DNA from: Tenuifilum sp. 4138str
GTDB taxonomy: Bacteria; Bacteroidota; Bacteroidia; Bacteroidales; Tenuifilaceae
Assembly (NCBI RefSeq): GCF_041102575.1
Contig: NZ_JBGCUE010000003.1
Span: forward strand, 186,001-250,000
Reading direction: 5' to 3'
Length of the DNA stretch: 64,000 bases
Shown piece after piece: positions 2,515 through 6,599 of the stretch (within the stretch, counting starts at the first letter, position 1; the number at the start of each line of letters is the position of its first letter). The notes beneath the pieces were generated by a model. It worked only from the letters and a program-made list of their open reading frames with translations, made no database searches and was not told the DNA's origin. The position numbers and the translations under genes were made by a program.

Positions 2515-3249
2515 TTACGGATTTATGTCGTAGCCCATTATTTCTTTGGCTTGTTTTTTATTGATTTTGTTGTCTGCCAAAAGTTGCCGAACAACTTTTG
2601 CTTTATCCTTGAATTTATGTTGAAGATTTAGTTCAACTATATATCGATATTTTTTCTCGGCATAATTTTCTGTGTCCTCTTTTTTCTTAGTCAAGCCGAT
2701 ACGAACCGCTTGGATTGGTTCGGTTTTTATCTCTTCAATTTTATCTTTTTTTAGCTCTCTCAAACAAATGCTTCCTTTGCCTGTCAAAATGTTACCGATG
2801 TTTGAGAAAATTTCTTTAAGAACGTTTGATGGGCCGCTTATGTAACGTGGACTATCTCCAAATTTCATAATTCCCCTGATTAAAAGCCCACCATAAATTT
2901 TCTTTTCATAGTCGCCAAATGTAATATCTAAACCTGCTCCGTTAAAATACCAGTTGCCCGCAAAAAGTTGTTCTGTAGAACAATGAACATAAGGATCCGG
3001 GTGATTGTCTTTATCGTAGTAGTAAACTTCTAATTCAGTAATTCTGTATGGTTGGTAGGCAACAACTAAACACAAGTAATTCATTAAATAGTAGGCCAAT
3101 GTTGAAAACTTCTCGTCAAGCGATTTGATTTCAAGGCACCCGTTTAAGTAATGCCAAAATTCTGCAAATTTACTTTGTTCAATTTCTTTGTCTTTACTCT
3201 CAAGTTCAAATGCTGATAGGTAAAGGTCGAGGTATTTAATGTCTTTCAC
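2515..3249 (-). CDS. Unknown protein, possibly 3-methyladenine glycosylase-like
   Basis: I do not firmly recognise this protein. An open frame runs back to 3459, but the part upstream of 3249 lies in a dispersed repeat and in transposon-end hairpins, so I prefer a GTG start at 3249, giving about 244 residues starting MKDIKYLDLY. The middle contains ITELEVYYY, an HPDPYVH segment, GNWYFNG, LDITFG and GGLLIRGI in that order. This resembles the order of motifs in the AAG (alkyladenine glycosylase) fold, where an ExE-Y block is followed by a barrel ending in AVLIRA. I infer a related fold, not the activity. The C-terminus is lysine-rich. The gene stops exactly where the deiminase-like gene begins. 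Confidence 0.6.
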   Translation of the reverse strand: MKDIKYLDLYLSAFELESKDKEIEQSKFAEFWHYLNGCLEIKSLDEKFSTLAYYLMNYLCLVVAYQPYRITELEVYYYDKDNHPDPYVHCSTEQLFAGNWYFNGAGLDITFGDYEKKIYGGLLIRGIMKFGDSPRYISGPSNVLKEIFSNIGNILTGKGSICLRELKKDKIEEIKTEPIQAVRIGLTKKKEDTENYAEKKYRYIVELNLQHKFKDKAKVVRQLLADNKINKKQAKEIMGYDINP

Positions 3250-3380
3250 ATCCGTACAAAATAAAATTTTGTAATATAAAAAAGCGAAGTTGGAAACATC
3301 CTTGTTAAGGGATAGTTTTACAATAACCCTAAAACCAACTCCCATGGTAAAGTTAGCGCTTTTTTCCAAAATCACCAGCC
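3246..3380. repeat. Dispersed repeat copy A (about 130 bp)
   Basis: This stretch matches 6467-6599 in the same orientation at roughly 85-90 percent identity by eye. Shared blocks include cacatccgt, gaagttggaaacatcc, gttaagggatagttttacaa and cccatggtaaagtta. It lies directly upstream of the preferred start of the unknown gene ending at 2515. The match ends near agcc; beyond that the two copies diverge completely. Confidence 0.85.
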
Positions 3381-4218: not shown

Positions 4219-4277
4219 CGGGCAGTGCCCGAATAGATAGATTCGACTGAGGCGTATAGCCTCAGCCGAACGGGGTG
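4219..4277. repeat. Right hairpin pair of the RAYT element
   Basis: The inner stem is CGGGC-agt-GCCCG (4219-4231). The outer stem is CTGAGGC (4247-4253) with GCCTCAG (4259-4265), extended by TTCG/CGAA (4242-4245 and 4267-4270). Read on the minus strand the order is CCCCG-TTCGGC, outer stem, GTCG, inner stem, which mirrors the left end at 3434-3492. The last bases also form the 3' flank of the minus-strand gene that ends at 4278. Confidence 0.75.
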
Positions 4278-6362
4278 CTATTTATATTCATCAGGTAAAT
4301 TTTGAACTATTTTGTTTATTTGTTCCTCCTTCTTTTCGAAAGAAAAAAGTCTATTCCAACAAAATCGTATTAGCCCCACAATTGCTCCTAACAGAGCAAC
4401 ATTGACTGCCATCATCCAATTACGTTTTGACTCACTCGGATTATTGTCAATATATTGAATTAACTTTTCAACATAGTTGTACTCCCAATCAATATAGAAC
4501 AATTGGAAAAAGAAAAATGCGCCTATGGCAATAATCAATGGCAAACACCAATAGGCTGAAGTACGCCAATCACTCAATTTACTGTCAATAAATTCCTGAC
4601 TAAGTTTAGCTTTAAGCCTTTTATTTTCTTCTTCTTTCTCTATTAGTTCCTTTGCTTGTTTAGTGGCTTTCTGATCTAAATCTTGTATCAGTTTAGAAGT
4701 AGATTCTTTGTGTGTCTCAAGCTCTGATTGTAGATTTTGATGCTTCGCTGCAATTTCTTCAACTTGTTTTTGTAACTCAGTTTTCGCAAAGTCTTTTGTC
4801 CTTTCTAGGATCTCCTCATCCTTGATTCCGTTTTCAAGTACTCCTTCAAATTTTCTTTGAACCAATGTTTGAACCAAAAATCTCTGTTGGTCAAAGTTTG
4901 TGGTCATTTCACTGATGCCTTTTAAAATGATATGAATTTTCTCGCTGTCTATTTTAGTTTCTCCACTCGGCAAGTTCAAAAAGCTAACAAAGCTTTTATA
5001 ATCGTCTGTTGTTCTGCATATATATCTAAGTATAATGCTAAGCCATTGGCTTGGAAGAATAACAACAGGGGTTGATAAATTTCTATAGTAGTCCCATCTT
5101 CTTAATGATTGGTCGGTGGAAATAAAGAACTGTTTTGTTTCAAATATATTCGATTCTTTGCCTTCTCGTCTTGTTTCAATTAAGAGAATATTTGAAGCAT
5201 CATAATAATCTCCATTCCAATTGTGACGGGAATTGTCAGCGTCTTTTTGTCGAGAAATTTCATTTGAAAGAGATGTTATTTTTTCTTTTATTTTTTCATC
5301 ATTATCATTAAAAGGGATCTTGTATTCAGTAGTGACATTAAATTCTTCTTTGAATTTCTCATAAAGCCCTAGGATATGAGCTTCAAATAGTTCTAAGCTA
5401 TCATTCACTAATCCCAATCGCCATTGATAATAAAAATCGTAAATGTCAGACAAACTTTTGAAATATTTTTCATTGAAAACATCAGGACTAATTGGCTGAT
5501 TCAAAGAATACTTTTTTAATTTATCAACATAGAACTTTACAGAATCTTTAAGCTCTAAATCAGTATATTTCGAAATAACTAATTTAGTTTCAGTTTCAGT
5601 TACCTTCTTTAAAAAAGTTATAGTTCTTTTCTTTCGGTTTTCACCATTTATGCCTAATGCTCTATAAATAACATTAGTGTCTATGTAGAAAACTTTATTT
5701 TTTAGATTATTAAGTTGTAATTGGACACCTTTTCCATTATTGGAAATCATACAATATTCAAGAGCATAAGAAGCAATGTCAAAAATCGCTTTGTTTTTAT
5801 CGTTATTATCCCAAGTTAGAAATTCGTTAATAACTTCTCTTTCAATTGTAGTGTAGTTATGAGATTCAATATTAATTAGGTCTTCAATTTGATTTTTGCT
5901 GTTAAGTAGTTTTTTAAAACCTTCTACATTTGTACTAAGCAATTCATATAAAAATCTGTAAATAATCTCTTTTACATTGATGCCTGTAGCTAATTCTGAT
6001 TTTAGTTTCACAAACTCATCAATGAAAAAGTCAATAGTTTTATTTGAAACTTTTGATTCAAGGTGAATCTTCCTTTTTTCAGTTAAGTTTATAATTATTT
6101 CTTCTTTCTTAACATTAACAACAAATCCTTCTTCTTTCTCGTGAGTTACAATTGAAATTACTTCTTCTTCAATAAGATCTAAATTGTAAGACGTCTGGAC
6201 AAACTCAATTATTTGATGAATGTTCAACGGTTTATTGCCATTACTTAAAATAGCACATTCAATAACCTTTCGGATGATAGTTTTTGTAGAAACCTCATAA
6301 TTGTTGTCAGCATACAATACTGCTGCTAGCCTGAATAATTGATTGTTGTCCTGTTTTATCAT
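4278..6362 (-). CDS. Membrane-anchored PIN-like domain protein with coiled coil
   Basis: This 694-residue protein is not one I can name. Residues 1-120 are helical with a winged-helix-like stretch (roughly 45-100). A PIN-like nuclease core is suggested by FYIDTNVIY with D228, a TDLEL segment with D268/E270, and FFISTDQSL with D417, which are the acidic positions expected at strand ends of PIN folds. Residues about 520-600 are a charged coiled coil. Two hydrophobic helices follow (about 604-624 and 649-669), separated by a short loop and ending in a basic tail. The likely topology is a cytosolic nuclease domain tethered to the inner membrane. It is monocistronic, AT-rich, and preceded by dispersed repeat copy B. 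A role in phage defence or RNA decay is possible but unproven. Confidence 0.7.
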   Translation of the reverse strand: MIKQDNNQLFRLAAVLYADNNYEVSTKTIIRKVIECAILSNGNKPLNIHQIIEFVQTSYNLDLIEEEVISIVTHEKEEGFVVNVKKEEIIINLTEKRKIHLESKVSNKTIDFFIDEFVKLKSELATGINVKEIIYRFLYELLSTNVEGFKKLLNSKNQIEDLINIESHNYTTIEREVINEFLTWDNNDKNKAIFDIASYALEYCMISNNGKGVQLQLNNLKNKVFYIDTNVIYRALGINGENRKKRTITFLKKVTETETKLVISKYTDLELKDSVKFYVDKLKKYSLNQPISPDVFNEKYFKSLSDIYDFYYQWRLGLVNDSLELFEAHILGLYEKFKEEFNVTTEYKIPFNDNDEKIKEKITSLSNEISRQKDADNSRHNWNGDYYDASNILLIETRREGKESNIFETKQFFISTDQSLRRWDYYRNLSTPVVILPSQWLSIILRYICRTTDDYKSFVSFLNLPSGETKIDSEKIHIILKGISEMTTNFDQQRFLVQTLVQRKFEGVLENGIKDEEILERTKDFAKTELQKQVEEIAAKHQNLQSELETHKESTSKLIQDLDQKATKQAKELIEKEEENKRLKAKLSQEFIDSKLSDWRTSAYWCLPLIIAIGAFFFFQLFYIDWEYNYVEKLIQYIDNNPSESKRNWMMAVNVALLGAIVGLIRFCWNRLFSFEKKEEQINKIVQNLPDEYK

Positions 6363-6466
6363 ATTTTACATTTCCCCTTTAAACGCTTTATCCATTAAAC
6401 TGGGCTAAAGTTCGTTAATTCTTTTTCTTTCTCTTTGTGAATTTTCAACAAACTATTTATTTTTTC

Positions 6467-6599
6467 TCACATCCGTCCAAAATAAATTTTGTAGATAAAA
6501 AAAGTGAAGTTGGAAACATCCCCGTTAAGGGATAGTTTTACAATAACCCAAAAACCAAATCCCATGGTAAAGTTAAAACTTTTTTTCAGATTTCAAGCC
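6467..6599. repeat. Dispersed repeat copy B (about 130 bp)
   Basis: Direct repeat of 3246-3380, with scattered substitutions and one-base indels. It sits about 105 bases upstream of the start of the PIN-like gene, in the same orientation relative to that gene as copy A has to the gene ending at 2515. No transposase, terminal inverted repeats or target duplications are evident. Confidence 0.85.

Follow-up and report, generated by a model that had tools for sequence, protein, structure and literature searches.

A minus-strand gene at 4278..6362 of the window analysed here (64,000 nt of the Tenuifilum sp. 4138str genome) encodes a 694-aa protein in which a winged helix, a predicted PIN nuclease domain, a coiled coil and two transmembrane (TM) helices follow one another, and which is probably an RNA-cutting enzyme moored to the membrane. 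With a probability of roughly two in three, we propose that it is a self-contained, membrane-moored RNase defence effector that forms a second layer behind restriction-modification (R-M) and arrests growth on infection. The family to which it belongs is probably an unrecognised single-gene component of phage defence, a role that we regard as probable because bacteria keep placing its members inside or next to R-M operons. The fold, the conserved acids, the anchor, the mobility and the recurrent occurrence of family members within R-M operons and defence islands are supported computationally. A first-pass annotation had drawn attention to a 694-residue protein at this position and omitted the strand; a 694-codon ORF is present there, and that annotation taken as a whole is partly confirmed, with the corrections given below.

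Domain architecture and conserved acids

An AlphaFold2 model of the full-length protein, built from an alignment of 31 sequences, reached a pLDDT of 84.7. When it was compared with known structures using VIA-align, residues 20-123 (5994..6305, minus strand, as for all features of the gene) matched winged-helix regulators of the PadR/LmrR, MarR and ArsR types (Z 9-11), and residues 223-438 (5049..5696) matched VapC (Z ~9-10). The latter region folded well in isolation (pLDDT 87.7, pTM 0.87), and its best 50 VIA-align rows were nearly all members of the PIN superfamily, namely VapC, FitB, HARP RNase P, Rrp44 and Nmd4, with Z values of 8 to 9.5 over 128-147 residues and nearly whole targets covered (Z 8-10 with the full-length model included). 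On these models, a PIN fold of residues 223-438, carrying a helical insert at about 285-375, is supported. The matches found by Foldseek for this domain were weak (best E 0.008), perhaps owing to the helical insert, and included Exo1 (FEN family) chains among the weaker ones.

The Exo1 chains belong to the evidence for another reading, in which a membrane-held nuclease would use its PIN/FEN-like domain to cut incoming DNA of phages or plasmids where it is injected, while the winged helix grips the DNA. PIN/FEN folds are able to cut DNA too, a membrane anchor fits the site of DNA entry and the winged helix resembles DNA-binding regulators, but RNases (VapC, HARP, Rrp44) head the structural matches, and we consider a DNA nuclease unlikely.

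Behind the PIN domain the model continues as a single helix (residues 515-622), a stalk of about 100 residues that runs on into the membrane. Its long helical or coiled-coil part (residues 515-605; 4548..4820) is continuous with the first membrane helix (residues 606-624; 4491..4547), and the second comprises residues 650-668 (4359..4415), both being called from hydropathy. A C-terminal hydrophobic segment is found in 30 of the 31 sequences, and most have two. The winged-helix-like N-terminus, the coiled coil and the two C-terminal membrane helices that the first-pass annotation had described are all present in the model and kept among the relatives, and its PIN-like core was borne out by structure prediction and fold comparison, VapC and other PIN proteins nearly filling the match list.

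Four acidic residues remain constant across the 31 homologues, down to ~16% identity: D228 in a DTN motif (codon 5679..5681), predicted to be the first metal-binding acid, followed by the predicted second, third and fourth acids E270 (TxxE motif, 5553..5555), D388 (DAxNI motif, 5199..5201) and D417 (TD motif, 5112..5114). Alignment to VapC with hhalign paired D228 with the DTN motif and E270 with the acid that follows, at a low probability (20%); with a small VapC set, the alignment was confined to the first half of the PIN domain. D388 and D417 are predicted to be active-site acids from their conservation and the overall fold match. Of the acids originally put forward (D228, D268/E270, D417), D228, E270 and D417 are thus invariant, but D268 is not conserved (D in just 10 of the 31) and D388 had been missed. 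Also invariant among the 31 sequences are N145, F181, K223, G237, Y311, K373, N391, R399, L420, P437 and D454.

The family lies outside the profile libraries that were searched. Single-protein searches of Pfam, NCBIfam, PADLOC, PHROGs and PDB sequences gave only weak, mostly coiled-coil matches, and no PADLOC-DB 2.0.0 model matched the window protein at E values up to 1, single relatives showing isolated weak matches only (E 0.002-0.03). The Pfam PIN model PF01850 weakly matched 3 of the 31 members (best E 0.009), the window protein not being among them; likewise, MCU (PF04678) matches occurred in 3 of the 31 relatives and not in the window protein. We discarded TIGR04211 (SH3_and_anchor), which covers the coiled coil alone at a score far under its cut-off, and a PDB profile search that returned merely SNARE and other long-helix noise. 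A search of BFVD gave one weak match to a viral 'PIN like domain' (rank 2, E 0.026), the remainder being long-helix or small-domain noise. The earlier statement that no named family has this order stands, as the family falls outside all Pfam, NCBIfam, PADLOC and PHROG models, and annotation based on the searched libraries therefore misses it. In the literature searched, we found no description of a protein that runs from a winged helix through a PIN domain and a stalk to two membrane helices.

An accessory island and a patchily distributed family

A distance of 242 bp in the congener G001 and of 116 bp in the congener G002 separates rluB from a methyltransferase gene that was judged by eye to be TrmN6-like. 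The window genome has ~8 kb between these two genes (C3:184917-192905), an insertion absent from both congeners, with the PIN gene at its end. The first-pass annotation had likewise placed the gene in an accessory region, and its remark that the gene is AT-rich is matched by a G+C content of 30%, the values of the window and of rluB being 43% and 51%. A RAYT-like transposase gene (matching NF047646) does adjoin the PIN gene, the two stop codons facing each other. Direct repeats of ~135 nt (3233-3368 and 6454-6588, ~88% alike) bracket the RAYT and PIN genes, and the genome holds four copies, three on contig C3 and one on C4, that are 88-91% identical to the query copy; the dispersed repeats reported earlier are thus two next to the gene and two elsewhere. 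Between the stops of the RAYT and PIN genes lies a REP-like palindrome that is also terminator-like (4242-4270), of which no other genomic copy with up to 2 mismatches was found. The island further contains an unassigned ORF and, at 491-2514 of the window, an ADP-ribosylglycohydrolase gene and a short PAD_porph (agmatine deiminase-like) gene, for both of which no defence link was found.

No same-strand ORF of ≥80 aa occurs upstream of the PIN gene as far as rluB, so that the gene is monocistronic in the window, as had been claimed, whereas its counterparts in many relatives are coupled to R-M genes. The sole type I HsdS found in the window genome is on contig C9, and since the PIN gene stands alone in an accessory island, a partnership with that type I system would be in trans. 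By eye, a small HTH gene followed by an N6-methyltransferase gene and a restriction-enzyme-like gene was noticed ~17 kb from the PIN gene (L071:4882-7417, corresponding to G000:C3:170882-173417).

A scan of 84,980 species genomes yielded 33 loci, spread over six phyla (Bacteroidota, Bacillota, Chlorobiota, Balneolota, Elusimicrobiota and Verrucomicrobiota). Full-length homologues with 59% identity and lower are found among these loci, which places the finding of the gene far above chance. Its occurrence is sparse: the gene was present in 2 of 98 relatives and in 2 further genomes of a broad phylum sample, and in none of the five congeners and twenty other members of the taxonomic family tested. 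The absence of the gene from 96 of the 98 relatives led us to reject a housekeeping role. In three of the 33 loci (L009, L028 and L029) the reading frame is broken. Both L011 and L028 have mnmE next to the PIN gene, a position that islands may occupy recurrently; near the PIN gene, L028 additionally encodes a DUF4268 protein, a helicase and a reverse transcriptase. We set aside a 721-aa protein (L045:703-2868) with a DTN PIN motif, a coiled coil and a hydrophobic C-terminus as a distant look-alike, its match being confined to a portion of the PIN domain (E 3e-7); it may represent a sister family.

One full-length homologue, 46% identical, is located on a 47.5-kb viral contig (L041:10001-12094), directly after the terminase gene and near DNA methyltransferase-like genes and genes for an NAD-dependent DNA ligase and a head maturation protease. 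No integrase was found in this record, which may be a fragment. The phage-borne copy may have a role in phage-phage exclusion. No homologue of the PIN protein was found in the phage GenBank collection, and scans of viral contigs with two other subfamilies as query gave no match.

The patchy distribution, the presence on plasmids and in a phage contig, and the AT-rich island between core genes would also suit a selfish accessory toxin, that is, a gene for addiction or for plasmid/phage stability that travels along in defence islands and leaves the host unprotected. Such a gene is improbable in our judgement, given that the family has no conserved antitoxin partner, that its members overlap or nearly abut R-M genes and that the linkage to hsd genes described below is far above chance.

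Linkage to restriction-modification operons

In eight of the 33 genomes, type I R-M genes flank the PIN gene (L009, L010, L012, L016, L019, L020, L021 and L039), with HsdS within ~5 kb. Uniform placement of the ~72 HsdS genes in the 118.6 Mb of the 33 genomes would predict 0.26 such cases (P ~5e-11), a null that is more extreme than the true one because accessory genes cluster in islands. The coupling is tight: hsdS and the PIN gene overlap by 4 nt (ATGA) in L016, the gap between them measures 4 nt in L009 and L012, 10 nt in L010 and 20 nt in the Flavobacterium locus L021, and in L039 the order is hsdR, PIN (12 nt from hsdR), hsdM (overlapping PIN by 4 nt), another gene and hsdS. Other systems were encountered as well, the PIN gene following a type III Mod-Res pair in L026 and lying between a DNA methylase (N6/N4 MTase) and a TdeIII endonuclease gene in L022 and between GmrSD_N and a C5 MTase-EcoRII pair in L014. 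On the tree, at least four changes are needed for the type I linkage and at least six for any R-M linkage, which means that R-M linkage arose or was lost repeatedly.

Further defence genes near family members include AbiH (L034), SIR2, Piwi and TIR genes on one Hymenobacter plasmid and Qat genes on another. Immediately upstream of the PIN gene, both Hymenobacter plasmid loci (L006/L038 and L007) have a P63C-domain gene. About 20 of the 33 loci have no clear defence gene within the nearest three genes on either side, and the same holds for the window. The role in phage defence that had been suggested for the gene gains support from the neighbours of its relatives (type I, II and III R-M, AbiH, pAgo/SIR2/TIR, Qat and the phage contig) but none from the neighbourhood in the window. 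Defence islands gather many mobile genes, and co-location with defence genes is therefore not function.

The coupling to R-M genes of types I, II and III, together with a winged-helix fold close to PadR/MarR repressors, could also be read as the signature of a regulator that controls R-M expression: its winged helix would bind the operon promoter and its PIN domain would trim the R-M transcript, so that self-restriction is prevented. We regard this as very unlikely, considering that the majority of members are located away from R-M genes and that a membrane anchor would be odd for a promoter regulator.

We also looked for a small antitoxin-like partner. No family of 25-110-aa ORFs recurs beside the PIN gene, pairwise similarities being restricted to closely related loci, and a VapBC-type arrangement was rejected because there is no partner gene. 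As no such small gene recurs, restraint of the enzyme must be internal or exerted via the neighbouring R-M system.

Proposed mechanism and known systems

In the mechanism that we favour, that of an RNase acting behind R-M, the two-helix C-terminal hairpin and the long coiled-coil stalk would hold the PIN endoribonuclease at the inner face of the cytoplasmic membrane, and the N-terminal winged helix would sense or bind nucleic acid and keep the enzyme off. The enzyme would serve as a second layer: a phage infection that defeats or triggers R-M would release the PIN domain, which would then cleave an RNA that the cell cannot do without, tRNA or rRNA if VapC and PrrC are a guide, and growth would stop before progeny are made. 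We infer RNA as the substrate, this trigger and abortive infection as the outcome, as well as restraint by the winged helix or the anchor with release on infection; that the membrane itself activates the enzyme, as the first-pass annotation put forward, is a guess, although the anchor is conserved.

A broader proposal is that the family constitutes a widespread, unrecognised class of R-M guardians, in which a PIN RNase encoded by one gene and anchored in the membrane guards R-M systems of type I, II or III alike and aborts infection upon their failure. The common signal, sensed at the membrane, would perhaps be something like foreign DNA that has escaped cutting, or the products of restriction. 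We offer this generalisation tentatively and consider it doubtful. R-M operons often carry additional genes of unassigned role, and this family spans operons of three R-M types and six phyla; a single, easily cloned protein with four predicted catalytic residues makes it possible to ask directly whether an abortive-infection back-up is commonly built into restriction systems.

PIN domains in phage defence, a PIN protein near HsdRMS and PrrC in hsd loci are already known, and the order of winged helix, PIN, stalk and two TM helices is new as far as the papers searched show. With the VapC/PIN-domain RNase toxins (PF01850) the family shares the PIN fold and the D-x-N, E, D and D acids in the same order, but its members have ~690 aa instead of ~130 aa, add a winged helix, a helical insert, a coiled coil and two TM helices, and lack a VapB partner. 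In PIN-GNAT-EVE proteins, a PIN domain is likewise often encoded near HsdRMS operons (PMC7641849). Members of our family have the PIN domain in the centre and membrane helices at the end, and GNAT or EVE domains had no Pfam match in the window protein and were absent from the families listed for the 31 homologues. The DefensePredictor systems DS-3 and DS-5 need a PIN nuclease for phage defence, DS-3 being a single protein with no antitoxin (PMC13092281). By description, both differ from the present family, as the PIN domain of DS-3 is split between the N- and C-terminus, whereas here it is contiguous (223-438) apart from the helical insert, and DS-5 requires a second protein, whereas here there is one gene.

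PARIS is a pair of an ATPase and a nuclease. The family described here consists of one gene without an ATPase and shares with PARIS and other R-M guardians the proposed logic that loss of restriction is detected and infection aborted (PMC12707154). The nearest functional model, by analogy, would be PrrC, an anticodon nuclease whose gene lies within a type IC hsd locus and which is set free by a block to restriction (PMC2610378, PMC12707154). As with PrrC/RloC, the nuclease gene is found inside type I hsd operons (here in 8 of 33 genomes, not in the window) and has no dedicated small antitoxin, and the back-up to restriction described for PrrC/RloC (PMC2610378, PMC12707154) is for our family a proposal. 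Neither the ABC ATPase of PrrC nor its nuclease domain, which is of another kind, had a Pfam match here, the fold being winged helix plus PIN with a membrane anchor. Unlike PrrC, the family also sits with type II and III systems, and its linkage to all three types alike counts against a PrrC-like physical complex with HsdMSR.
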